Shown here in pieces: positions 838 to 18,388 of a stretch of DNA of 64,000 bases. The DNA lies in assembly GCA_902779395.1 (NCBI GenBank), contig CACZBK010000012.1, positions 1 through 64,000 of the forward strand, read 5' to 3'. Below the pieces are notes generated by a model, which saw only the letters and a program-made list of their open reading frames with translations, did no database searches and was not told the origin of the DNA. The DNA comes from an uncultured Lachnospiraceae bacterium (GTDB lineage Bacteria > Bacillota > Clostridia > Lachnospirales > Lachnospiraceae). Both the position numbers and the translations under genes were made by a program. Positions within the stretch are counted from its first letter, which is position 1. Every line of letters begins with the position of its first letter.

Positions 838-1530
838 ATGACCGAGGAAGAACTCCAAAACTATATTCTTGAGGTTCTGAAAGGAAATGAGGACTATTAT
901 AAATATATCAGCGATTTTGCTGATAAGTATGGTTTTGACCCTGCTACCATGGAAGAACCCCTGTCCCAGTCGATCGGTTATGTAGAAGAAGCACAGCGTA
1001 TGTGCAAGGAGCATGTTCTGGCTCTGAGAGGAGAAGGATCTTCCCAGAATGCAAGTATGCTGAACTTTATGTCTCTTGGCGATAAGTTGTCTGGTCTGGC
1101 TAAGAATCTTTCATCTGTACGGGGCAGGCAGAAGTCTGTCATACAGTCTGCGGAAGGTAATCTCAGGGAAGATGTTCAAAAACTTCTGGAAGATCTGTTT
1201 GAGATAAAGTGGTTTCCCGATTATGTGGGTACCACTACATTGGCAGGTCTTAATAAATTAAAGATAAAACATCCTTTCCTTAAAAAGGGTGCCCATACGA
1301 AGAACATAAGCATATATATGCTTCAGGTTGAAGAATTTGACAAGATGATAGAGGTACTTGCGGAGTACTATTTCAATAAGGATCAGGGCTATGACGAAAA
1401 AGCGGTAAAGGCTATAGGAGTTACTGTCGAGAATATCCGTAAATCCGTAATCACGGGGGAGGATATATTAATGGCTAAGGCTGCTTTCAATAAATACGAA
1501 GGAGTATATAACTCCATTCTCGGGAGTTGA
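838..1530 (+). CDS. Hypothetical helical protein, 230 aa
   Basis: I do not recognise this protein. It has no signal peptide and no membrane segment, is predicted to be mostly helical and soluble, and carries no catalytic motif that I can identify. The middle part (about residues 70-125) is polar and helix-prone, followed by a lysine-rich stretch (KLKIKHPFLKKG). GGAGG lies 12 nt before ATG 838, and GGGG directly precedes the start. It has its own promoter (736-764) and a strong terminator (1558-1600), so it is transcribed separately from the giant gene that follows in the same direction. The adjacency suggests, but does not show, a functional link such as chaperone, immunity or regulatory partner. 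Confidence 0.75.
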   Translation: MTEEELQNYILEVLKGNEDYYKYISDFADKYGFDPATMEEPLSQSIGYVEEAQRMCKEHVLALRGEGSSQNASMLNFMSLGDKLSGLAKNLSSVRGRQKSVIQSAEGNLREDVQKLLEDLFEIKWFPDYVGTTTLAGLNKLKIKHPFLKKGAHTKNISIYMLQVEEFDKMIEVLAEYYFNKDQGYDEKAVKAIGVTVENIRKSVITGEDILMAKAAFNKYEGVYNSILGS

Positions 1531-1557: not shown

Positions 1558-1600
1558 AAGAGCGCAACGTCTGCGGGAAGCGGGCTGTTGCGCTTTTGTT
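1558..1600 (+). terminator. Rho-independent terminator after the 838 gene
   Basis: Perfect inverted repeat AGCGCAAC (1561-1568) / GTTGCGCT (1587-1594), extended by A-T and G-T pairs, followed by TTTGTT. The 18-nt loop is long but the stem is strong. Confidence 0.8.
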
Positions 1601-1624: not shown

Positions 1625-1652
1625 CGGATAACTATACAGCGGAGGTGAAGAT

Positions 1653-4600
1653 ATGCCGCCTTTAAAAAAAGAAAAACCACAAAAAGATATAGAGATGGAC
1701 GACCTTGCGCAGAAGAAAGCGCGGGAGGAAGAGGCTAAAAAGAGAAATGCGCTTCGTAATAAAGTGGGGGCAGAGATAGATTTTGCCAGGGAGCTTTATG
1801 AGCAAAAGTATGTAAAAGAAGCCAGCGCCAAAGCTTTTTCAAAGATCAGCACTCTTTTGGTACGCTATAACCGCATGGCTTCCAAGAGCAGGGAATACTC
1901 CAGTGCTGAAGAGAGTGCATTGCGTGACGAAGCACAGCATTACAAATCAAAAATGGATTATCTCGCTACTCTTCAGCAGAAACTTGCTTCTATAGAGGAC
2001 GAAAGCGTAAGGAAAGAAGAAGAAGCCAAGATCAATAAGAAAATAGAGGATTGCAAAACCGATCATCTGGCTGCAGTAGAACATATCAAGGCAAATATAA
2101 AGGCTCAGAGAGACGATGCTAACCGCAGTATGGACCGGGATGACGGAGCTATACGCGGCGCATTGATGCTCGGAGGAAATACGGCATTTGGCAGGGGATA
2201 CACCTTAACGGAAGGTGATTATCTCGATACCATGAGGGCAGGCGAGTATATAAATGAGGTCGACAGTGAAAAGGGGACTCTTATGGAGCAGATGTCTCTT
2301 CTGGATAATGCTGTCAACACCGGTGGTATCGATCTTGACCGTGGACGGGGGAATGCATGGGTGGCCCAGAAAAATCTGGGTGAGATACTGAGGGAAGTGA
2401 GAAAAGAAGATCTTGAAGCATTAAATTCCGACAGTGGAGAGAAACTGGATCTTGACTTTGATCTTATTGAAAAAAACAGAAAAGATGAGAAGATGGATGA
2501 GCTTCTGGGCGAAAAACAAAAAAAGCTCACGCTTGATGAAGCAGCGCAGGAGCGGGGAGTAAAATGGATACAGGAAGAGGATAAGAGAAGTAAAGCAAGA
2601 AAAAAGATAGAAAACTTCTTATCCCGGAAAACGAAGTACAGAAAAAAAATTGTTATAAAAAGTTATGGTCTGACTCAGGAGGCTAAAGACAGAAAGGCCG
2701 GGATAATAAATCCGTATAATGATCCTCAGAAGCAAAAATATCTGGAAGATCTTAAAAGCAAGGCCAACACGAGTTTTTTTATGCAGTCTATTGTCGGAGG
2801 TATCGGGACCGGAGAGCAAAGGGGCCGCAGAGACCTTAATGTGTCTAATCAGTCAGAGAGACGGGAGCGGGTCCGTGAATCAAGGCTGGAATTTGAGAAG
2901 ATGCTCCAGGAGGCGGCTAAAGCAAAACGTGAAAAGGTTATAAAGGTAAACGAACAGGATTCATTTGACGACGCCATGAAGCGTTTGAAAAATGATGAGG
3001 TCAGTACTGTCAGGGAACTTGAGTCTCTCGGGCTGGATAAAGACGGGCAGAGAGAACTGATAGAGAATGAAGATAATATCGATCGTGTTATCAGAAACTC
3101 TGCTATGAAGAATGGCACGGGAACAGCTTTGCATATGCTGTCAGCATACAGAATGCTGGGAGCAAGCCAGCAGGAGCTTCTTGACTTCCGCCTGGCTCTG
3201 ATCGCATATCTTGTTCCTGTCGGAAAGAGCAGCGTTGCGCAGATAGTTAATGAATCCCATGCAGCCGGCGTGGTCGGAGCAGAGGGGCCCGGTGCTGTCA
3301 CCGAGCAGGATGATCAGGCAAAACTGTTTAAGCTGCTTAAAGTGAATGCTGAAATAGTCAGCAGGATGAATGACGAAGAAGGAAAAAAGGGATTTGGCTG
3401 GATAATCGATAAAAAGAAATATAAGAGCAGCAGGCTGACGGAGGAAGTTGCCAATCCGGATGCGCTGGATACCGAAAAGAAAAAACTGCTGAAAAAGCAG
3501 GAAGACGAATACAGATTTGACCGTCTGTACAGATCGGTTATATCCGATGAGGATTATCTTGATCTGTCGGATGCTTCCGATGAACCGTTATTCGGTGAGA
3601 AGGGTGAGATAAAAGCTTCTGATGTTATCGAGGGGGATGCTGCCCGTGACAGTTACCTTTGTGCTGCCCTGGCAGGGCTTGCAAAGTCGGATCCTGAATA
3701 TATCCGTACAAGGCTTGTGACTGAGAATGAAGATAATAAAGTGCTTGTTACGGTACGGCTTTATGATGAGTTTGGATCACCTCATCTTATAACGGTATCG
3801 AAGAAAAGGCTGAAAGACGGTGCAAAGGGGCCGCTGTGGGTGAGCATGGTCGAAAAGGCTGCTCTCAGCATGCTCGGGCAGAAGGATCAGAAGGCTGTTT
3901 TTGCAGATAAAGCGGCGGCTAAACTTGATGTTAAGGACATAAGTAACGGCAGCGGTGATCTGGCCATGAGGCTTCTGTTCGGGAAGAGCCGTCACAAAGT
4001 GATATCTACCGGATATGACGAAACGGATAAAGGGGAAGCTGAGGAAAAAGGAAAGACGGCGATAGCCGCCATCGTTGCCGCTGTAGAGAATAATATGATC
4101 ATAACGGTATCGACCGGTTCCCTTACCGATGACGGTAAAAGAAGTAAGGTAAATATGGACGCACTGGGTCTTAAAGCCGAAAAAGAATATACGGTTACGG
4201 GTACCGGCGAGGGTAAGGATGGAAAGCGCATCATACATGTAAGGGATACATACGGTATTGCGACAAGTGTAAGAAAAAGCAAAACGATAGCCAAAAGTCC
4301 CGGAAATAAGAATGTGTTATCTCATGCTACCGTAGGATTCAAAAAGGTAAAATACGATGATGGTGTGATCGGCATAGGGGAAGACGATTTCCTTAAGATA
4401 TTTTCAAATGTTGTTATCGCTTCGGCGCCTGATGCTGCCCTTATAAAAAAGGAAGATGAGGGCAGAAAGAGGCTTGAAGAAAAAAATGCCGGAAAGAAGA
4501 AAAAGGAAACTGTGCCCGGAAAAAATATTGCTGCGGGTGATGAGACATATGATCTTGAAGAAGATCAGAAGGAAAACGAGCCCCTTTTCGGAGATGACGG

Positions 4601-7600
4601 AGAGATAAAGCTTTCTGACGTAAGGCAGGGGGATACGGATGACTGTTATCTTCTTGCAGCCCTTATCGGCTTGATAAATACAGATCCCGATTATATCAAG
4701 ACCACTCTGGTAAAGGATAATACTCCCGATGATCCGTCTACCGTTACTGTTCTGCTTTATGATAATTCCGGAATGGCCAACAATATAACCGTATCCAAAA
4801 AGCGTGTTAAAAACGGTGCTAAGGAAGGTGCGCTGTGGGTGCATATGGTTGAAAAAGCAGCTGCAGTTTTAGTGGGTAAGACCATTGCCGAAGGAGCAGG
4901 ATTCAGAGTTGACGAAGCGGGCGGTGAAAAGCGGTCGATAATGGATATCGGAAAAGGCTCGGAGCAGCTTGCCATGGAGCTTTTATTCGGAAAGAAAAAG
5001 CATATAAGTTACAAAACATATGATCCCGTTACGGAGGCGCAGGAGCAGAAAGATAAGAAGAGTAATGCAGATAAAGCTCTTGAAGCCATAAAGGAAGGTC
5101 TGACGCAGAAGAAAGTGATCATAGCTTCCACCTGTAACAGAGGAACGAGTGAAAAATATAATCCGGAAGATGACAGTGTTAAGCTGATCGAAGGCCTTAA
5201 GGCAAAGCATGAGTATACGGTTGTTGGCCTTGGGGCAAACATAGGTGATGATCCTTCAATAATCCTTAAGGATCCCTACGGTCCGGGAACAAGCGTACCT
5301 GTTTACAAAGACGGTGTTGTAACTAAAGGTGAATCAAGCGGAAAGTCATTCTCCATAAAGATAAGTGATTTTCTCAGGTGTTTCTCGGATATAGCCATCG
5401 GTGCACCTGATAAAAGCATCATTTCGCATAAGGAAGAGGAAATACCTGCTGATAAGAAAGACGAAAAACCTGAGGAAAAGGGTCAGGGGACGGATCAGGA
5501 TTTTGACCTTGGTATGACTCCCGTATTTGCTGCTCTTGGTTCGGCACATGAACTGGAGATGATAAAACGGTGGAAAGCAATAGCCAATCCTTTGTGGACA
5601 AGCGCATATGTAGCTTTGGGTAAAAAGACGCTCAAAGAGATAATGGATCCTGTTGATTCTCTTATGGATCTTTTGTCTGATATAATCCCGGTTAAATATG
5701 ATCAGGCAGCTAAGGAAGAACTGGGGAAAAAATGTGAAAAAGTTAAGGATAACTACGCCTCGATAATACTTGCCGGGAAAAAACTGACCGAGAATATAAA
5801 TGATCTGGATTTTGAGAGCAGAAGTGCAACATTAATGTATATTTCACAGCTGATGGAAATGGCATCAGTGCAGCTGACTTCATTTACAAGAGGCAGTCTG
5901 GTATACAGCAGAAAAAAGCAGAAGGGAGAAGAAAATAAGTTAAAACCGCTGGCTTATCTTCTGACTATTGGTGAGGAGTCCTTACGGGAGGATGAAAAAA
6001 AACCAAAGAAAAAACCGGAGAAAAAACCTGAGAAAAAGGATAAAAAAGATCCGGTGGTCGTAAAACAGGAAGTTCAGCAGGGAGGAACCGGAAAGAAAGA
6101 AGATGATATACACCTTGAGAGTGTATCTTTGGAGGCTATGGCCAAGCTTGATGAGATATCGCATATAGGCCGGTGGAATGATCTGAGACTAAAGCTCATT
6201 CAGCTTACGGGCGGCAAGTATAAGAGTACAAAGCTGAATGATGCGCTTACAAATATGGAGGAGCTGGCAGAGCAGCTTCAAAAGCCGTATATTAAACCCC
6301 AAAAGGGTGAGCTGGCTGTATATGGTGCTGGCGGAAGCGGTACTGTTACCCGGCTTTATCAGAGCCTGACTGATGATTCGACAGCTCTGGCTTTAGAATT
6401 GGCAGGGGCAGAGTTTGACGGAAATGACGAAGCTGCGGCACTGACCGCTAAGATCGCTGCGATAGCCAATATGGAGGAAAGATATTTTCAGCGTGGAAGA
6501 AGAGTCCTGATCGGAGAGGGAAACGGAGTCATAAAACCTTTGTGGGCAAGAGCACTTGTAAAAGGAAGGGAGATATTCGAGAAGGAAGAAGAGGAAAGAA
6601 AAAAACAGGAGCAGGAGGAGAAAGCAAAAAAGAAGGAAGAAAAGGAAGAAGAAAAGAAAAACGAACCGCCTGTTGAAAAGGCTCCGGTTCATTTGGACAT
6701 TAATGCCGCTATAAATGAAAAGGATCTTATATCACGCTGGAATGATCTTGCGGATAGGATCAGAAAAGCAGTGGGTGAAAAGAACAGGAGTCACGACACT
6801 GACTTTATCGTCAGTGCGATAGACAGACTGACCAAACTCCTTGCAAGGGAAATTCCTGTCAAAAGGAATCAATCGGCCTTCAGGCAAACTCAACAGTCAA
6901 ATATCAAGGTCACATATAACAGTATCACTGCTGTTGCCAATAGGCTGGCGGGAGAACTGTTTATGGCAGCTTTCGAAGGCAGTGCGGAGGCATCACAGAT
7001 AGCTTCTGTTATATCGGCTCTTGCAATTGAAGAAAGAAGATTTTTTATAATAGGGTATTCTCTTCAGGAAAAGAAAAAAGCAAAGACATGGGCAGAAGTG
7101 CTGCTGAACGGAAAGACCGCTTCAGATAAAAGTGCAGCGAAAAAAGAAAGGCAGCCTGTTGTTAAGGACGATAATGTACCCGAACATGAGCCGCCCAAAG
7201 TAGAACATGAGCCGCCTAAAGTGGAACATGAGCCTGATGCGGGCGGCCCTGATAAAAAAGAGAAAGTTTATGAGCAGTTCATGGAAGAACAGAGACTGCT
7301 TGATGAAGAGGAAGAAAAACGACGCAAAAAAACCGGCTCAGGCAAGCCGGGGCTGTTTGATAATGCTGAAGATCTTGAGATGAATGAGATGATGCGTATT
7401 TTTCAGTGGAATAATCTGAGGGATATGCTTGAAAAACTGACCGCAGGTGGAAACAGGGATGCCCTGCTTTTAACTCTGATCAAAGCCGTTATCGATCTGA
7501 CTGCCCGTTACGGAAAGAATATTCCCGATAATGAGAATGCCTTTAACAAAGATAAGGAGATCATACAGGAGTGTTACAGATTTATATCCCTGACCGGGCC

Positions 7601-10415
7601 CGATATAGCCAGAATATTGTCTAAAGATGCATCAGCCAGGAAGAATAAAAAGGCAGCAGAGGTTGTCCGGCAGATGATCGATCTGGCAAAAAAGGAGGAG
7701 CAGTATTTTATCAGGGGAGTTGCCGCTGAGATAAAAGAAAAAGGAAAACAGAGCAAAGCTCCGGGTAAAAGCAGTGAAAAACAATGGGCAAGTCTGCTTA
7801 AGAGCGGAAAAATAGCTTTTGATAAAGAAAAGTCGGAAAAAGATGCCCTGCCGCCTGAGCAGGAAAAAAAACCTTTGAAGACAGAGCCTTTACAGGAAGA
7901 ACATTTAGATGAAGGGCCTGTTTATGATGAACCCAACCCGGACAGCATAACCGTTGTAAGTAAGAAAAAGCCCCGTAAGAAAGGGTTTGTGCCGGATCCT
8001 GATGAAGAGATCGGAAACATAGAACAGCATTTGGAACAGGAAGACAAGTGCCTTTTGGATATAAGCGCTAAAAAAACCGGCCGGAAGAGTTTTACGCCTA
8101 TTTCAACAGGTGTTAAATTCAAGAACCGTTTTATCACAGGATTAAGTGCTGTTCTGGGGGTAGCTTTTTCGCCTGTGACTGCAGCTATAATGGGCATCAG
8201 TAAGCTGGTGCATATGGCGGGAACAAAGGATAGAATAGCCGGCGCACAGAAGGACCGCAGCAAAAAGAATACGGGTGAAATTGCGGGGATGGATAAGACT
8301 ACCCTTGCAGAACAGAAGGAACTTAAGGATAGTGAAGGCAATATTCAGGTATTTGATGATGTGCGCAAGATCCCTCTGGTGTGGGAACGCGTATCTGCGG
8401 GAGATACAGAGGATGAACCGCAGATGAGTATAAACATTGAACAGCCTAAGCCGGGAAAAACTACGGCAAGTGACTGGGGAAATGTCGGTCATGCTTTTAT
8501 CGGTTTATCATACAGCCGTTACAATGCATCTACTCAGCAAAAAGAGCGATATAAACTGGATTATGGTTTTTATCCGAAGAATGGTTTTCATGGTATAGGA
8601 TTAACTATGGCTGTGAATGAAGGGGCATTTGTCCCCGGTGAATTACAAGATGACAGAAATCATATATATAATTATTCAAGAAGATACAATATAACCAACG
8701 AAAAGATCAATGCGATCCTGAAAAGATCGGAAAACTATGCTGCCGGAGGTTATAATCTTGCAAGTCGTAACTGTACTACTTTTGCAGTTGAAATGGCTGA
8801 GACTGCAGGCTTAAGCATAGCGAAAGATATCCCTTCTGCGGAATTTGATACAGGAGGAGTGGCGGATGCGGCAAGAGCGGGATTCGCAGGTTTTTCCCAG
8901 GCGAGCAGGTATACCAATAAAATATATCTTGAAAAAATGTTGAGCTCTGATGACCCCGGATATCAGAATTATGGCCAGAAGATGATAACTAAAGAAGAAC
9001 TGGACCGCTATAACGATACCAGAGGTTATTTTATAGGTTCACAGTCGGGATATAATCCTGCGCTGGCAGGAGAGACTTTACGCCGCAGCGAAGACAGGGA
9101 GGGAGAAACTGCTGCGAAGATGGATCTGAACCTATCGGATAGATATACCGAAGCAAATCCTCAGGAAGCCAGACGTCTTATTAGAGAAATACAGGCTTTT
9201 TGCAAAGATAAGATCAAGATGAGTAAGGCAGGGGATAACGTGGAATGTTTTAGGCAAATGGTGCTTTCGACTATGAACGATAGCGAGTGGAGAAATGTTG
9301 AAGAGCTTGATGGCGTAAAAGATAATCCTCTGGGGCTTAAAAGAGTATACCAGCGGCTTAATTATAAGAGAAAAAATATGGCGGTCATATATACTAAAAA
9401 CCCCAAGGCATTCTCTGATAAAGATCAGGAGATACTGAGGCTGTTCAGTGTATTTGAAGATACGCTTAATAAGATTGACATTCTTTATGAAGAGAGCATA
9501 AACAAACAATACAAAGGCAGTCTTAAAAAGGCACGAAGATTATATGAGAGTGAAAAAATGATCATTAATTACATGGATACAAAAGATGACGATCTGATCG
9601 CTGTTGAGATCGAACCCAGTATATATGAAGCGTATCTGCAGATGTTCGGGTCACCGAAAAAGGCTTTGTCTGCTTATATGGAGTATAATTCTTTTTCGGT
9701 TGAACTGGATAAGGCAAAAAAGAATGGAGATAAAAAGCTTGAAAAGAGCATTGAAAAAAGAATGGAAAAATCGAAGGAGACTTATGAAACAGCCCTGTCT
9801 TTTGCGGCTTCCCACAGATATCGTATGAACAAAGCTGAATATGACGAAGCCGATCTTAAGTATGCCTTTGAACAATTGCCTGCGCTTGAGAAGGTCAGTG
9901 AATCGGAAGTATTACAGGGCAGTATGATCGCGGATCATATGACCGGAGCATCAATGATGCAGGCTCTTATCTTTGAAAAAGCATTTCCCGGTCTTGGAGA
10001 TAAGACAAACGAGATAGAAAAAAAAGCAAACACCGGCGAAAAGGCTAAACTGCTGGACGGATACCTTGCAGGATGTGTCAAAGAGGAGAGTTGCCGTAAA
10101 GAACTTAAAAAGATCCTTAAACATATGGTGGTAAATATTTTTAAACCCGGAAGTTCGGAGGAGGAAGACTGGAAGATCTTCTTTGATACATTCCATCATT
10201 CTTATCTGGTTCAGGTATTGGGAACTGCTTTAAAAGGGGAGTTTGATATCGTTAATGACATAGCAGAAAGTATTAAATCGGGAGAATCGGAATTTAAAAA
10301 GGAAATACTTGATCTTATCACAGAAGTACAAGGTGAGCATATAACGGAGCAGTTAAACGAGGATCGTGGTATTATGAACGTTGAAGAGGAAGCGTATTTA
10401 GATCAAATGACTTGA
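1653..10415 (+). CDS. Giant multidomain protein: two calpain-like domains, helical repeats, papain-like domain (2920 aa)
   Basis: Start ATG 1653 follows GGAGGTG. No signal peptide. Visible order: charged coiled-coil N-terminus (about 1-490); a block with FRLALIAYLVP and NESHAAG (about 500-540); calpain-like domain 1 (about 644-950); calpain-like domain 2 (about 975-1270); four related helical modules of about 140 residues containing (R/Q)WN-L-type starts (about 1300-1440, 1500-1645, 1690-1826, 1910-2062) joined by Lys/Glu-rich linkers, one with tandem PPKVEHE; a hydrophobic segment (about 2158-2185); a papain-like domain with His2280 (GHAFIGL) before Cys2374 (NCTTFA); and a helical tail. Domain 2 keeps Cys998 and His1186 with Asp1207 where calpains have Asn. 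Domain 1 has Ser667 for Cys and Lys844 for His. Known of the family: calpains (C2) are cysteine proteases whose catalytic core includes LWV-EKA text, which both copies show. Target, location and activity are unknown. The gene is followed by an ABC exporter, but that exporter has no peptidase domain. Confidence 0.85.
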   Translation: MPPLKKEKPQKDIEMDDLAQKKAREEEAKKRNALRNKVGAEIDFARELYEQKYVKEASAKAFSKISTLLVRYNRMASKSREYSSAEESALRDEAQHYKSKMDYLATLQQKLASIEDESVRKEEEAKINKKIEDCKTDHLAAVEHIKANIKAQRDDANRSMDRDDGAIRGALMLGGNTAFGRGYTLTEGDYLDTMRAGEYINEVDSEKGTLMEQMSLLDNAVNTGGIDLDRGRGNAWVAQKNLGEILREVRKEDLEALNSDSGEKLDLDFDLIEKNRKDEKMDELLGEKQKKLTLDEAAQERGVKWIQEEDKRSKARKKIENFLSRKTKYRKKIVIKSYGLTQEAKDRKAGIINPYNDPQKQKYLEDLKSKANTSFFMQSIVGGIGTGEQRGRRDLNVSNQSERRERVRESRLEFEKMLQEAAKAKREKVIKVNEQDSFDDAMKRLKNDEVSTVRELESLGLDKDGQRELIENEDNIDRVIRNSAMKNGTGTALHMLSAYRMLGASQQELLDFRLALIAYLVPVGKSSVAQIVNESHAAGVVGAEGPGAVTEQDDQAKLFKLLKVNAEIVSRMNDEEGKKGFGWIIDKKKYKSSRLTEEVANPDALDTEKKKLLKKQEDEYRFDRLYRSVISDEDYLDLSDASDEPLFGEKGEIKASDVIEGDAARDSYLCAALAGLAKSDPEYIRTRLVTENEDNKVLVTVRLYDEFGSPHLITVSKKRLKDGAKGPLWVSMVEKAALSMLGQKDQKAVFADKAAAKLDVKDISNGSGDLAMRLLFGKSRHKVISTGYDETDKGEAEEKGKTAIAAIVAAVENNMIITVSTGSLTDDGKRSKVNMDALGLKAEKEYTVTGTGEGKDGKRIIHVRDTYGIATSVRKSKTIAKSPGNKNVLSHATVGFKKVKYDDGVIGIGEDDFLKIFSNVVIASAPDAALIKKEDEGRKRLEEKNAGKKKKETVPGKNIAAGDETYDLEEDQKENEPLFGDDGEIKLSDVRQGDTDDCYLLAALIGLINTDPDYIKTTLVKDNTPDDPSTVTVLLYDNSGMANNITVSKKRVKNGAKEGALWVHMVEKAAAVLVGKTIAEGAGFRVDEAGGEKRSIMDIGKGSEQLAMELLFGKKKHISYKTYDPVTEAQEQKDKKSNADKALEAIKEGLTQKKVIIASTCNRGTSEKYNPEDDSVKLIEGLKAKHEYTVVGLGANIGDDPSIILKDPYGPGTSVPVYKDGVVTKGESSGKSFSIKISDFLRCFSDIAIGAPDKSIISHKEEEIPADKKDEKPEEKGQGTDQDFDLGMTPVFAALGSAHELEMIKRWKAIANPLWTSAYVALGKKTLKEIMDPVDSLMDLLSDIIPVKYDQAAKEELGKKCEKVKDNYASIILAGKKLTENINDLDFESRSATLMYISQLMEMASVQLTSFTRGSLVYSRKKQKGEENKLKPLAYLLTIGEESLREDEKKPKKKPEKKPEKKDKKDPVVVKQEVQQGGTGKKEDDIHLESVSLEAMAKLDEISHIGRWNDLRLKLIQLTGGKYKSTKLNDALTNMEELAEQLQKPYIKPQKGELAVYGAGGSGTVTRLYQSLTDDSTALALELAGAEFDGNDEAAALTAKIAAIANMEERYFQRGRRVLIGEGNGVIKPLWARALVKGREIFEKEEEERKKQEQEEKAKKKEEKEEEKKNEPPVEKAPVHLDINAAINEKDLISRWNDLADRIRKAVGEKNRSHDTDFIVSAIDRLTKLLAREIPVKRNQSAFRQTQQSNIKVTYNSITAVANRLAGELFMAAFEGSAEASQIASVISALAIEERRFFIIGYSLQEKKKAKTWAEVLLNGKTASDKSAAKKERQPVVKDDNVPEHEPPKVEHEPPKVEHEPDAGGPDKKEKVYEQFMEEQRLLDEEEEKRRKKTGSGKPGLFDNAEDLEMNEMMRIFQWNNLRDMLEKLTAGGNRDALLLTLIKAVIDLTARYGKNIPDNENAFNKDKEIIQECYRFISLTGPDIARILSKDASARKNKKAAEVVRQMIDLAKKEEQYFIRGVAAEIKEKGKQSKAPGKSSEKQWASLLKSGKIAFDKEKSEKDALPPEQEKKPLKTEPLQEEHLDEGPVYDEPNPDSITVVSKKKPRKKGFVPDPDEEIGNIEQHLEQEDKCLLDISAKKTGRKSFTPISTGVKFKNRFITGLSAVLGVAFSPVTAAIMGISKLVHMAGTKDRIAGAQKDRSKKNTGEIAGMDKTTLAEQKELKDSEGNIQVFDDVRKIPLVWERVSAGDTEDEPQMSINIEQPKPGKTTASDWGNVGHAFIGLSYSRYNASTQQKERYKLDYGFYPKNGFHGIGLTMAVNEGAFVPGELQDDRNHIYNYSRRYNITNEKINAILKRSENYAAGGYNLASRNCTTFAVEMAETAGLSIAKDIPSAEFDTGGVADAARAGFAGFSQASRYTNKIYLEKMLSSDDPGYQNYGQKMITKEELDRYNDTRGYFIGSQSGYNPALAGETLRRSEDREGETAAKMDLNLSDRYTEANPQEARRLIREIQAFCKDKIKMSKAGDNVECFRQMVLSTMNDSEWRNVEELDGVKDNPLGLKRVYQRLNYKRKNMAVIYTKNPKAFSDKDQEILRLFSVFEDTLNKIDILYEESINKQYKGSLKKARRLYESEKMIINYMDTKDDDLIAVEIEPSIYEAYLQMFGSPKKALSAYMEYNSFSVELDKAKKNGDKKLEKSIEKRMEKSKETYETALSFAASHRYRMNKAEYDEADLKYAFEQLPALEKVSESEVLQGSMIADHMTGASMMQALIFEKAFPGLGDKTNEIEKKANTGEKAKLLDGYLAGCVKEESCRKELKKILKHMVVNIFKPGSSEEEDWKIFFDTFHHSYLVQVLGTALKGEFDIVNDIAESIKSGESEFKKEILDLITEVQGEHITEQLNEDRGIMNVEEEAYLDQMT

Positions 10416-14614: not shown

Positions 14615-17600
14615 ATGAAACGCAGAAAAGTTTTGGCGATGCTCATGACTGCTGTGATGACATTTACATCCATAGCTCCCCAGAATGCTTTACTGGTAAG
14701 AGCAGAGGATGATGTTGTTATCGAAAGCGTCAGTGAGGATGACGCAGAAGTTTCCGAAGATGCAGCGGTATCAGAAGATGCAGCTGTTTCGGCCGATGAA
14801 GCTGATGCGGCTGAGGAGAAAGAGCTTCCCGCAGGTATCAAGGGTATGCCGGAAAGCTATGTGATGAGTGCCGAGGAAAAAACGATCAAGGCAAATGTTG
14901 CATCACACAATGTAGCAGGTGATGTTAAGGCAGCTACAGCAGGAGTTGACTATACTTCAGATGAAGTACTCTTCCTTGCTGATGATGAGGAGTATGCTGA
15001 GCTGGTAGCAGAGGCATATGGTGCTGAACTTAAGAGTTTTGACGGGTATGTTGCCGTTCTTGACCTTTCAAAGAGCGGGCTCAGCGTGGCAGATGCTGTA
15101 GCTATCGGTGCAGATCCTTCATATGATATACCTGCTGTTGAAGCAAACTATATCATAACGGTCGATACCGGTTATGAAGGATGGACTGATGAGGAGATCG
15201 ACGCATATTCACGCTGGAGATACAAAAATACTGAGGATGGCTGGATCGATGAAGTAGGGAAGATGTCCAACCGCGATCCTTATCTTAATCCCAATGATAA
15301 GAATTATCAGTGGTTCCATGAAGTTGTAGGAAGCTACGGCGCATGGGGCGTATACGGCTATGATTTCTCACGCAGCGGTATCAAAGTAGCCGTGATCGAT
15401 ACCGGTGTAAATACGGCTCATGAGGATTTTGTGGGACATATCACTGCAGACGGTAACGACCTTAACGGTCATGGATCAAATGTTGCCGGTATAATCGGCG
15501 CTTCCGCTAACAATGGGAAAGGCGGTGCAGGTATTGCACCCGGTGTGCAGATAATAGGTTATACCTGCGGTACAGACCAATATGGAAGTCTTGATTCTGC
15601 AAAGATCATTTCTTCGATCAAAGCTGCAGCTGATGCAGGGGCTGATATCATAAACATGAGCCTTGGTGGACCGTTCTATAACGCAACTCAGGAAGCTGTA
15701 GTTGATTATGCCTACAGTAAGGAAGTGACTGTAGTAGTTGCGGCAGGTAATGAAGCATCTAACAGTGTATCTTATCCTTCACATTACAAGCATGTCATCA
15801 ATGTAGCTGCGGTACAGCCTGACGGATCACTTACCACCTTCTCGAATTTCGGTGATTCTCTTGTAACAGTAGCAGCACCCGGTGCTGATATGATGTCCTG
15901 TAATGCAGGTGCATCAAACAGCTATGTAAAGATGCAGGGTACTTCACAGGCAGCTCCCGTAGTTGCAGGTGTATGTGCACTTTACATGAGCGTTGTGGGT
16001 CATGTAACTCCCGATGAGATGGCTAAGGTCCTTAAGAACAGCGCTACATCTACTTCAGCAAAGGGCGACGGAGCAGGTATTGTTAATATCGCCAGGATGC
16101 TTAAGGGCGATACCACCGGCCCCGTATTTACTCTTACTGATGCTTCAGGTAAGGAAGCAAAAGTTGAAGGCGGAAAGAGCGGTTCCGTAACAGCTTTTGC
16201 TGATGCTGTCATAAATGTTTCAGCCGGAACCTATAACGGCAATGATGACGGTAACCGTAATACCCAGATATTCTATACTACCGATGGTAAGGCACCTTCC
16301 TTCGATAAGAGCGGACAGGCTAAGGATGATACCCTGCTTTCAACCGACGGAAAGATCCCTCTTTCCTCTTATCCCATATATGCAAATGCATATAACGGTG
16401 GAAAGTATACGATCAAGGCACAGGCAGTTACAGGTATGGGTATTTCCAGTAAGATCACTACCATTACCGTGACCGTTAAACCCGGTGAAGATAAGGGTCT
16501 TAACATAAATGCTCCTGCTTCCCTTGCAGCAGGAACAAGTGCAGATCTGTATGCACGTCTTGCAAGACAGAGCGGGACCGCAACAGGTTATTCGACTGTT
16601 ACCAGCGGTGTTACCTGGTCTATAGAGTCGGGCAGCGATCTTGCATCCATCAATAACAAAGGTACATTAAAGGTAAATAAGAACGCTTCCGGTTCTGTTA
16701 CTGTAAAGGCTTCATATAAGGATATGACAGCTACTGCAAGTATCAGAGTGGGACATGCTCCGGTTAAATCCATCGAGTTAAGCGAAAAGGATGTAAAACT
16801 CAGCTACAATAAGGATTCTGAGGTACTTGGAGCTGTTTACAAAAAGGTGATCACCGTTACCAAGGTTACGGATACAGAGGGTAATGATGTAACAAATGCA
16901 GATTATCTGAGCTTTGGCTACAGCAATTCAAGTTACAGTTCTTTGTCCGTATCAACAGCAAATAACGGAAGAACTATAACTCTTACTGCAAACCGTAATC
17001 CCGGAACCGCAAAGGTAACTGTAATAGCTAATGATGGTTCGGGTGCAAAGGCAGAGATCAATGCAAAGGTTGTAAGACTTGTTGATGACGTATTTGTATA
17101 TGGCCAGAACAATATCGTTCAGGGTGGCAGCGCTTCCTATAAAGCTTATGCTTATCCCAAGGAAGCAGAGAAAAAAGATGTTACCTGGTCGGTTTCACCT
17201 GCGATCGCAGGTATCACAGTAGATGCCCAGGGTAAGGTAAGCGTGGCTTCTTCGGTAGCAGCAGGCACTAACTTTAATGTAGTAGCTACAGCTGCTGACG
17301 GCAGCGGAGTATCCTATGGCCGCCCCGTAAAGGTAGTTGCCGCAAAAGCTAACGGCGTCAAGATAAGCACCGAGGCGACAGATCCTGCATATAAAGTTAA
17401 TGTAAAGAGCGGAAGTATCGCATCGCTTCAGCTGTTTACTGTTAATGCTCCTTCCAGTCCCGTAAATGAGACAGCCATTACCGTTAAGGCTGAAATAGGA
17501 AATGATGCTAATCCGGAGTGGGAGACCAGTAACTACAAGGTAGTAAGCCTTGAATACAGCGGAAATACAGCTTATCTGTATGCTACAGGAAAGGGTACCG

Positions 17601-18388
17601 CAAAGATCACCTGCTATGCTTCCGACGGTTCGGGCAAGAAGGTTACTTTCAAAGTTAAGGTAATAGTTCCTGTATCCGGACTCCAGTTCAGCACAGCTAC
17701 TGTTGGGACATATGCAGATCCTCACGGAGTAGACAACACATATTCATCTGTTGCTATAGGCAAAAAAGCAAAGTCAAAGTTAAGTGTGATCCAGAGTTAT
17801 GGTAAGGCAGATAACAGTAAGGTTAACTGGACTGCTGAGCCTGTATTCCTCGCAGTAAATGCAACTAAGGATTCATATACTTACGCGAAAATGGATGAAG
17901 CTACAAAGGCTAAGGTAAAGAATGATAAGCTTTTCAGCGCTAAGGGTGGTACTGTATCGTTCGGTAAGAATTACGCAAGTAAGATCAAGAACTATGGTAA
18001 GACTGTGGCTGTACTTCTTACTGCAACCACTACAGACGGTACGAACATCTCCATGAGCAGATTGATAGTTCCTTTGAAAACGACTACCAAGCTTGGTTTC
18101 TATACGAAGTCAGGCAGCCTTTCGAAAACTATAAAGCATACCGATAGAGCTGTTGCTGGCAGTCCTATCTCTGCTCAGGTAATATACTATATAGGTAGTG
18201 ATGGCGATATGGACTTTACCGTTACCAGCAGCAATCCTGAGGTTTGTACAGCTTATTACGAGGATAAGCGTAGTGAGATTCCTGGTATACTTTTATCTTA
18301 CGGAAGCAAGAAGGGTAAAGCTGTAATAACCGTTACCGCAAAGGATGGCTCAAATAAGAAATGTAAGATCAAAGTAACGATTAATTAA
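14615..18388 (+). CDS. Secreted S8 subtilisin-like protease with Ig-like domains
   Basis: 1257 aa. A signal peptide (Lys/Arg-rich start, hydrophobic core, likely cut after LLVRA near residue 30) is followed by an acidic Glu/Asp/Ala/Ser linker. A prodomain-like segment spans about 112-190 (DEVLFLADDEEYAELVAEAY ... ANYIITVD). The catalytic domain shows Asp262 (VIDTG), His286 (NGHGS), the oxyanion Asn379 (AAGN) and Ser444 (GTSQAAP), so the enzyme should be active. After about residue 500 comes a chitobiase-C-terminal-like segment (IFYTTDGKAP) and then several bacterial Ig-like repeats (VTWS..., AKVTVIANDGSG, GKGTAKITCYASDGSG). No LPXTG or S-layer anchor is visible at the C-terminus, so it is probably released or bound by its Ig-like part. 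It has its own promoter and a strong terminator. The next gene encodes a lipoprotein resembling its prodomain. Confidence 0.93.
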   Translation: MKRRKVLAMLMTAVMTFTSIAPQNALLVRAEDDVVIESVSEDDAEVSEDAAVSEDAAVSADEADAAEEKELPAGIKGMPESYVMSAEEKTIKANVASHNVAGDVKAATAGVDYTSDEVLFLADDEEYAELVAEAYGAELKSFDGYVAVLDLSKSGLSVADAVAIGADPSYDIPAVEANYIITVDTGYEGWTDEEIDAYSRWRYKNTEDGWIDEVGKMSNRDPYLNPNDKNYQWFHEVVGSYGAWGVYGYDFSRSGIKVAVIDTGVNTAHEDFVGHITADGNDLNGHGSNVAGIIGASANNGKGGAGIAPGVQIIGYTCGTDQYGSLDSAKIISSIKAAADAGADIINMSLGGPFYNATQEAVVDYAYSKEVTVVVAAGNEASNSVSYPSHYKHVINVAAVQPDGSLTTFSNFGDSLVTVAAPGADMMSCNAGASNSYVKMQGTSQAAPVVAGVCALYMSVVGHVTPDEMAKVLKNSATSTSAKGDGAGIVNIARMLKGDTTGPVFTLTDASGKEAKVEGGKSGSVTAFADAVINVSAGTYNGNDDGNRNTQIFYTTDGKAPSFDKSGQAKDDTLLSTDGKIPLSSYPIYANAYNGGKYTIKAQAVTGMGISSKITTITVTVKPGEDKGLNINAPASLAAGTSADLYARLARQSGTATGYSTVTSGVTWSIESGSDLASINNKGTLKVNKNASGSVTVKASYKDMTATASIRVGHAPVKSIELSEKDVKLSYNKDSEVLGAVYKKVITVTKVTDTEGNDVTNADYLSFGYSNSSYSSLSVSTANNGRTITLTANRNPGTAKVTVIANDGSGAKAEINAKVVRLVDDVFVYGQNNIVQGGSASYKAYAYPKEAEKKDVTWSVSPAIAGITVDAQGKVSVASSVAAGTNFNVVATAADGSGVSYGRPVKVVAAKANGVKISTEATDPAYKVNVKSGSIASLQLFTVNAPSSPVNETAITVKAEIGNDANPEWETSNYKVVSLEYSGNTAYLYATGKGTAKITCYASDGSGKKVTFKVKVIVPVSGLQFSTATVGTYADPHGVDNTYSSVAIGKKAKSKLSVIQSYGKADNSKVNWTAEPVFLAVNATKDSYTYAKMDEATKAKVKNDKLFSAKGGTVSFGKNYASKIKNYGKTVAVLLTATTTDGTNISMSRLIVPLKTTTKLGFYTKSGSLSKTIKHTDRAVAGSPISAQVIYYIGSDGDMDFTVTSSNPEVCTAYYEDKRSEIPGILLSYGSKKGKAVITVTAKDGSNKKCKIKVTIN

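Follow-up and report, generated by a model that had tools for sequence, protein, structure and literature searches.

Calpain proteases are best known from eukaryotic cells, and to our knowledge few roles have been assigned to those of bacteria. The proteins delivered by contractile injection systems (CIS) are another described group with which the locus reported here can be compared. The main text of Geller 2021 (PMC8213781) includes gp19, sheath, gp25, DUF4255 and AAA among the known core domains of extracellular CIS (eCIS), and the searched portion of Zhang 2012 places Ntox11 under delivery by PVC. Neither 'protease' nor 'cysteine' occurs in the main text of Geller 2021, and 'calpain' is absent from the main text of Danov 2024 (PMC11297309) and from the same portion of Zhang 2012. 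Across the open-access literature, taken without supplements, bioRxiv and most subscription papers, we found nothing on extracellular contractile injection in Lachnospiraceae; contractile injection systems and calpains come together there only in a review of toxins as tools.

The window, the whole 64,000-nucleotide stretch of Lachnospiraceae DNA that we analysed, contains a gene for a protein of exceptional length, hereafter the giant (Table 1). As the initial annotation had it, this is a single open frame, here with an ATG start and a GGAGG ahead of it, and the product has no N-terminal signal peptide by reading. A single Pfam family exceeds its cut-off, Peptidase_C2 (PF00648; E 5.5e-9), with 36 bits for the whole giant against a cut-off of 23.8 and a best stretch at residues 982-1210; in six-frame genome searches, the best single piece of the giant reaches 20.7 bits, below the same cut-off. 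There is no match in NCBIfam, PHROGs or PADLOC, and no named family in these three libraries or in Pfam covers the whole protein, so the annotated calpain character stands beside the lack of an ordinary family. Pfam recognises no other calpain domain besides the Peptidase_C2 core, no LXG/WXG domain and no eCIS_core/DUF4157 domain, the last being frequent in CIS effectors but not required. That the giant is a phage or defence gene was rejected, PHROGs and PADLOC being without a match.

Table 1 Features of the giant gene and its upstream region in the window.
Feature	Residues	Position	Strand	Basis or remark
Upstream 230-aa protein (838 gene)		838..1530	+	Beside the giant in 4/4 genomes
Intrinsic-terminator-like hairpin and T-run		1560..1597	+	Between 838 gene and giant; folding against shuffles
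Shine-Dalgarno-like GGAGG		1641..1645	+	Sequence; 7 bases upstream of ATG
Giant ORF	2,920 aa	1653..10415	+	ORF call and Pfam
N-terminal region	1-630	1653..3542	+	Rich in Lys and Glu (23%)
Calpain unit 1, predicted pseudoenzyme	640-920	3570..4412	+	HMM and alignment
Calpain unit 2	973-1247	4569..5393	+	Pfam, HMM, alignment, PDB profile
Repeated module 1	1292-1448	5526..5996	+	phmmer; helical by reading
Repeated module 2	1491-1646	6123..6590	+	phmmer
Repeated module 3	1679-1826	6687..7130	+	phmmer
Repeated module 4	1902-2060	7356..7832	+	phmmer
Transmembrane-like hydrophobic stretch	~2160-2183	8130..8201	+	Kyte-Doolittle
Permuted papain-like candidate domain	~2240-2400	8370..8852	+	His2280, Cys2374
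C-terminal region	2441-2920	8973..10412	+	Among loci compared, orthologue matches only, 31% identity

An iterated calpain HMM finds two units in the giant, at residues 640-921 (E 4e-80) and 972-1248 (E 2e-93), with E values that are not independent of its seeds. Because both units seeded this model, the independent test is a search of PDB sequences with a profile made from 11 calpain units of this and related genomes (alignment A3). It matches 19 sequences at E <= 0.01, the best at 2.7e-13. Eighteen carry the name calpain; the nineteenth, 1kxr, is entered as 'thiol protease domains I and II' and is presumably mu-calpain. Unit 2 as a single sequence in phmmer found no calpain in the PDB.

Both calpain-like units claimed initially are therefore present, but they are not equivalent. 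At the catalytic columns of A3, unit 1 has S667 for Cys, K844 for His and D865 for Asn; without the Cys and His, cysteine protease activity is not expected of it, and by these residues it is a pseudoenzyme. Unit 2 keeps C998 and H1186, with D1207 in place of Asn, and is judged from the alignment an intact-looking calpain-type protease unit. The third column holds Asn in the calpains of loci L009, L010, L030, L032 and L033, and Asp in those of L007, L008, L028 and L035. Compared with the bacterial branch of calpain family C2 (PF00648; Rawlings 2015, PMC4631099), the giant shares the calpain core and, in unit 2, the Cys and His; it differs by its tandem of units, the first of them dead, by Asp for Asn and by the embedding of the pair in 2,920 residues.

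Three related genomes of the genus, G406, G411 and G426, hold orthologues of the giant. The sole calpain unit seen in that of G426 is dead: in A3, Ser takes the place of the catalytic Cys and Gln that of the His. The two contigs that carry this giant have 55 nt in common at their ends, just beyond the dead unit; this suggests that the giant of G426 carries the dead unit alone. The giants of G406 and G411 are cut by contig ends, and the calpain region is absent from both fragments. Because the unit seen in G426 is dead, what is conserved may be something other than proteolysis. Elsewhere in the window's genome (G000) and in G426, two related calpains with matching neighbourhoods, L007:7588-9930 and L035:7025-9442, have at the catalytic Cys column a Ser and a Cys, respectively.

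The four repeated modules of the initial annotation, each of about 155 residues, are real repeats, their helical nature being by reading. Pairwise phmmer gives E ~2e-12 for modules 2 and 3, ~6e-10 for 3 and 4 and ~1e-7 for 1 and 3; every pairing with module 3 reaches ~1e-7 or better, while modules 1 and 2 hardly match (~0.2). Two stretches over modules 1 and 2 have no Pfam match above cut-off, and the G426 giant has at least three modules. Beyond the modules, the six most hydrophobic 19-residue windows of the giant (Kyte-Doolittle 1.64-1.92) all fall at residues ~2160-2183.

Peptidase_C97 (PPPDE) and Lnb_N (DUF4105) are permuted papain folds, and the candidate domain that follows the hydrophobic segment resembles them in having a conserved His and then a conserved Cys. 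The motifs GH and RNCTTFAV, with H2280 and C2374, are invariant in 3/3 orthologues. Peptidase_C97 matches the domain in each of the three with E 0.004-0.011, always below cut-off (best score 17.5 bits against 29.2). A search of 299 family genomes with the domain gives matches in the window's own genome and G194 only; the distant relative in G194 (L088) aligns the same His and Cys, and matches Lnb_N with E 2e-4 and 21.4 bits, just below the cut-off of 22.2. Structure prediction from a two-sequence alignment yielded a model with pLDDT 32 that is not usable: strands, a helix and a helix beginning at the Cys follow one another as they might in a permuted papain fold, an agreement to which we give no weight. 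A PDB sequence search with the alignment of the cysteine domain returned nothing credible. The domain only weakly resembles these families, and we treat it as a permuted papain-like candidate, not a member. Of the papain-like domain proposed at the outset, the conserved His and Cys and the weak C97 matches remain, with every match below its curated cut-off and a model of low confidence. Among the profiles proposed with it (C2, LRAT/NlpC/P60, DUF4105), the calpain profile exceeds its cut-off and DUF4105 enters only through L088, below cut-off.

Calpains and CIS go together in this family. Among 397 family genomes, PF00648 occurs in 10 and the CIS marker Pvc16_N in 39 (38 over cut-off), with both in 9 (Fisher 3.2e-9); without the window's own genome the overlap is 8/9 (2.9e-8). 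By taxonomy labels, the ten calpain genomes are ten genera, and the sole one without the CIS marker, G332, is 90% complete. Both genes lie on one contig in four of the nine, 22-60 kb apart. Within the genus (35 genomes), a sheath gene accompanies calpains in 7/8 genomes against 5/27 of the others when giant fragments are counted (p 8e-4), and in 5/6 against 7/29 by PF00648 alone (p 0.012); the exception is G398, with calpains and no sheath gene. The calpain-CIS link is strong for the gene family; for the giant itself, we infer it.

Individual loci point the same way. In G370, CIS genes, an AAA+ ATPase, a GNAT gene and two calpain genes are all on one strand. The calpain of G413 adjoins a homologue of an ADP-ribosyltransferase exotoxin, with Ntox11 nearby, and an eCIS_core protein (PF13699) is found close to that of G405. 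Four further calpain ORFs, of 740-1,448 aa, occur in the window's genome; on its contig C17, one calpain is 46 kb from a CIS cluster (L048, G000:C17:1-20000) with Pvc16_N, Phage_sheath_1, gp19 tube, gp25, Phage_base_V (spike) and DUF4280. A protein of this cluster matches TIGR02243 baseplate assembly, below cut-off.

A GNAT-like gene is found at most two same-strand ORFs away from 21/27 calpain ORFs outside the window, against 39/125 other ORFs in those loci (p 1e-5). Since the GNAT model was seeded with six proteins from four of the calpain loci, the count was repeated without these loci and gave 17/23 against 29/103 (p 6e-5). The calpain of G418 is omitted from the count, the ORF filter having kept a longer antisense frame. 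It is possible that the GNAT-like neighbours are effector adaptors or immunity proteins. The loci with GNAT genes near calpains are L007-L010, L030, L032-L035, L057, L058, L064, L066-L068, L070-L072, L075 and L076; at L032, the GNAT gene also adjoins an ADP-ribosyltransferase gene. Between GNAT and calpain genes, two genera have a 161-aa protein (L010:9241-9726 and L058:7570-8055), of which the L010 copy has no Pfam or NCBIfam match. G357, of another genus, has, on a contig with CIS genes, ORFs of at least 2,301 aa (L058:13096-20000) and of 2,450 aa (L059:3567-10919); each has a GNAT gene within two ORFs and neither has a phmmer match to the giant.

The initial annotation had offered the giant as an effector, toxin or cell-remodelling protein. 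Because calpains co-occur with CIS, and some have CIS clusters around them or toxin genes next to them, the effector idea gains independent support; the giant itself is, however, outside the CIS cluster. It lies on contig C12, against C17 for the CIS of the same genome, and in G406, G411 and G426 the giant and the sheath gene are likewise on different contigs. No GNAT gene is among the giant's neighbours on its contig, whose start is 837 bases ahead of the 838 gene. With the CIS-linked proteins compared, the giant has nothing but its calpain units in common. That the giant is a CIS effector seems to us nearly as probable as not, falling just short of the balance.

Leaving aside its calpain units, sequence of the giant was detected in 4 of the 35 genus genomes, the window's own and the three relatives. 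Among the loci compared, residues 1-630 match only the orthologues in these three relatives, at 41-42% identity; the cysteine domain has 52-53% (two relatives) and the C-terminus 31% (two). Its neighbours stay conserved, with 76-82% for the 838 protein (three relatives) and 88% for a DUF5672 homologue (two). Such fast divergence beside conserved neighbours is as expected of conflict proteins. All four giant-bearing genomes have a sheath gene, against 12/35 in the genus (hypergeometric p 0.0095). In a tree of 11 of the 12 sheath sequences, that of G418 not having been recovered, they form one clade with support 1.000, so this co-occurrence may reflect a single event or common descent.

Like the eCIS and PVC toxins described in the main texts of Geller 2021 and Danov 2024, the giant is multi-domain with parts that resemble enzymes, shows by reading no export signal, and belongs to a CIS genome; some of its calpain relatives are near ADP-ribosyltransferase, Ntox11 or eCIS_core proteins. 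It differs from these toxins by its position outside the CIS cluster and by having no DUF4157/eCIS_core domain. As an effector, it would be a very large multi-domain protein independent of Sec, taken up by the CIS that its own genome encodes and injected into a bacterial or eukaryotic target cell. Inside that cell, unit 2 would act as a cysteine protease, cutting either the giant itself, whose parts would be freed, or target proteins. Unit 1, if it retains its fold, could partner unit 2 by binding substrate or by inhibiting it. The four modules might have a spacer or adaptor role, and the hydrophobic segment might set the C-terminal thiol-enzyme domain at a membrane.

More broadly, calpains may be a class of CIS cargo in Lachnospiraceae, mostly near GNAT genes. 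The giant would be the extreme injected member of this class, with a dead calpain that regulates or aims the live one and is followed by a membrane-acting thiol enzyme. We hold this picture tentatively, as possible rather than probable. If calpains and CIS are tightly linked across a large anaerobic family, bacterial calpains would gain a role, that of delivered proteases; the link names concrete proteins to seek among the contents of purified particles. A giant carried as cargo would be a very large load and a test of how CIS take up proteins. How a producer might silence a protease destined for delivery can readily be modelled on the tandem of pseudoenzyme and active unit.

The upstream gene was annotated as a partner of the giant. 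It does adjoin the giant in all four genomes: in G406, G411 and G426, an 838-type gene is directly upstream, after sugar-transferase-like genes (by reading), with the DUF5672 homologue between these and the 838-type gene in G406 and G411. Among the 397 family genomes, which list three of the genus, the 838 gene occurs only in the window's own. The 35 congeners include 11 with relatives of it; 7 of these have no detected giant, as searched with the parts outside the calpain units; a sheath gene is present in two of the seven. The stretches around these genes (L080-L087) hold no giant, 3 of the 8 being only 3.7-5.1 kb long, and in L080 the ORF filter discarded the 838-type frame itself. The survey of neighbourhoods thus finds the 838 family conserved beside the giant and also where no giant is detected. 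Because a hairpin separates the two genes and relatives occur in congeners with no detected giant, the 838 gene argues only weakly for a dedicated partner; on these comparisons we treat it as a conserved neighbour, not a proven partner. That it is a dedicated chaperone was rejected, given the relatives in seven congeners without a detected giant. At L085, the 838-type gene is beside a small protein that resembles, by reading, a gene near a calpain of the window's genome (L008:6114-7073).

The 838 protein has no match in Pfam, NCBIfam or PADLOC, and in PHROGs two weak matches to unknown families (best E 0.012). Its single-sequence structure prediction (pLDDT 42.5) is all-helical in a poor model that is not usable, and a PDB sequence search with its alignment gave nothing credible. 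The hairpin that follows the gene folds with a z of -5.8, and 0/200 shuffles are as good; a scan for terminator patterns on the + strand does not list it, its stem having a bulge. The giant was also credited with its own promoter. One promoter-like match is indeed present at 1596-1624, but such matches are no commoner than in shuffles, with 3 found in 640-1700 against 2.6 expected.

This neighbourhood bears on a second reading, in which the giant stays in its producer as an envelope or remodelling scaffold: a regulated calpain, anchored to the membrane by the hydrophobic segment and working with the upstream sugar-transferase-like cluster. The synteny with these genes and the 838 gene in three relatives agrees with it, as do the one transmembrane-like segment, the missing export signal (by reading) and the spread of the 838 family, 5 of whose 11 congeners have no sheath gene. 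The upstream synteny with sugar-transferase-like genes also counts against delivery by CIS. Against it, the giant is detected in so few congeners and diverges rapidly beside conserved neighbours, a terminator-like hairpin precedes its gene, and calpains elsewhere in the family track CIS. We consider this reading unlikely, though not to be dismissed. The patchy distribution would suit yet another role in the producer, as a cytoplasmic anti-phage or programmed-death protein whose calpain is restrained by unit 1 until a signal frees it. The pseudo/active tandem suits such regulation, and the CIS of some Gram-positives do act within the producer cell; PADLOC, however, matches neither the giant nor the 838 protein, and by reading the neighbourhood has no recognised defence genes. 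Such a role appears distinctly unlikely.

The least probable proposal, to which we give very little credence, is that the giant leaves the cell through a different specialised pathway, T7SSb for example, and that the helical 838 protein helps to target it. The upstream gene is small and all-helical in its poor model, calpain homologues with WXG100 domains are recorded in other bacteria in the accessible part of Rawlings 2015 (PMC4631099), and G398, the calpain genome of the genus that lacks a sheath, has the T7SSb marker. This marker, YukC/EssB, matches in 4/35 congeners (3 over cut-off) and in none of the four giant-bearing genomes, and T7SSb export of the giant was rejected on that ground; the absence of an LXG/WXG hit in the giant and the existence of the 838 family without a detected giant also speak against it. 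Delivery by CIS is our preferred reading of the giant.

Downstream of the giant, the window contains ABC transporter genes and, at 14615-18388, a gene for a subtilase-like protein with a signal peptide (by reading). In G411 (L025:4682-7531) and G426 (L027:8803-11646), the giant fragments are followed by genes whose start is very similar to that of the latter.
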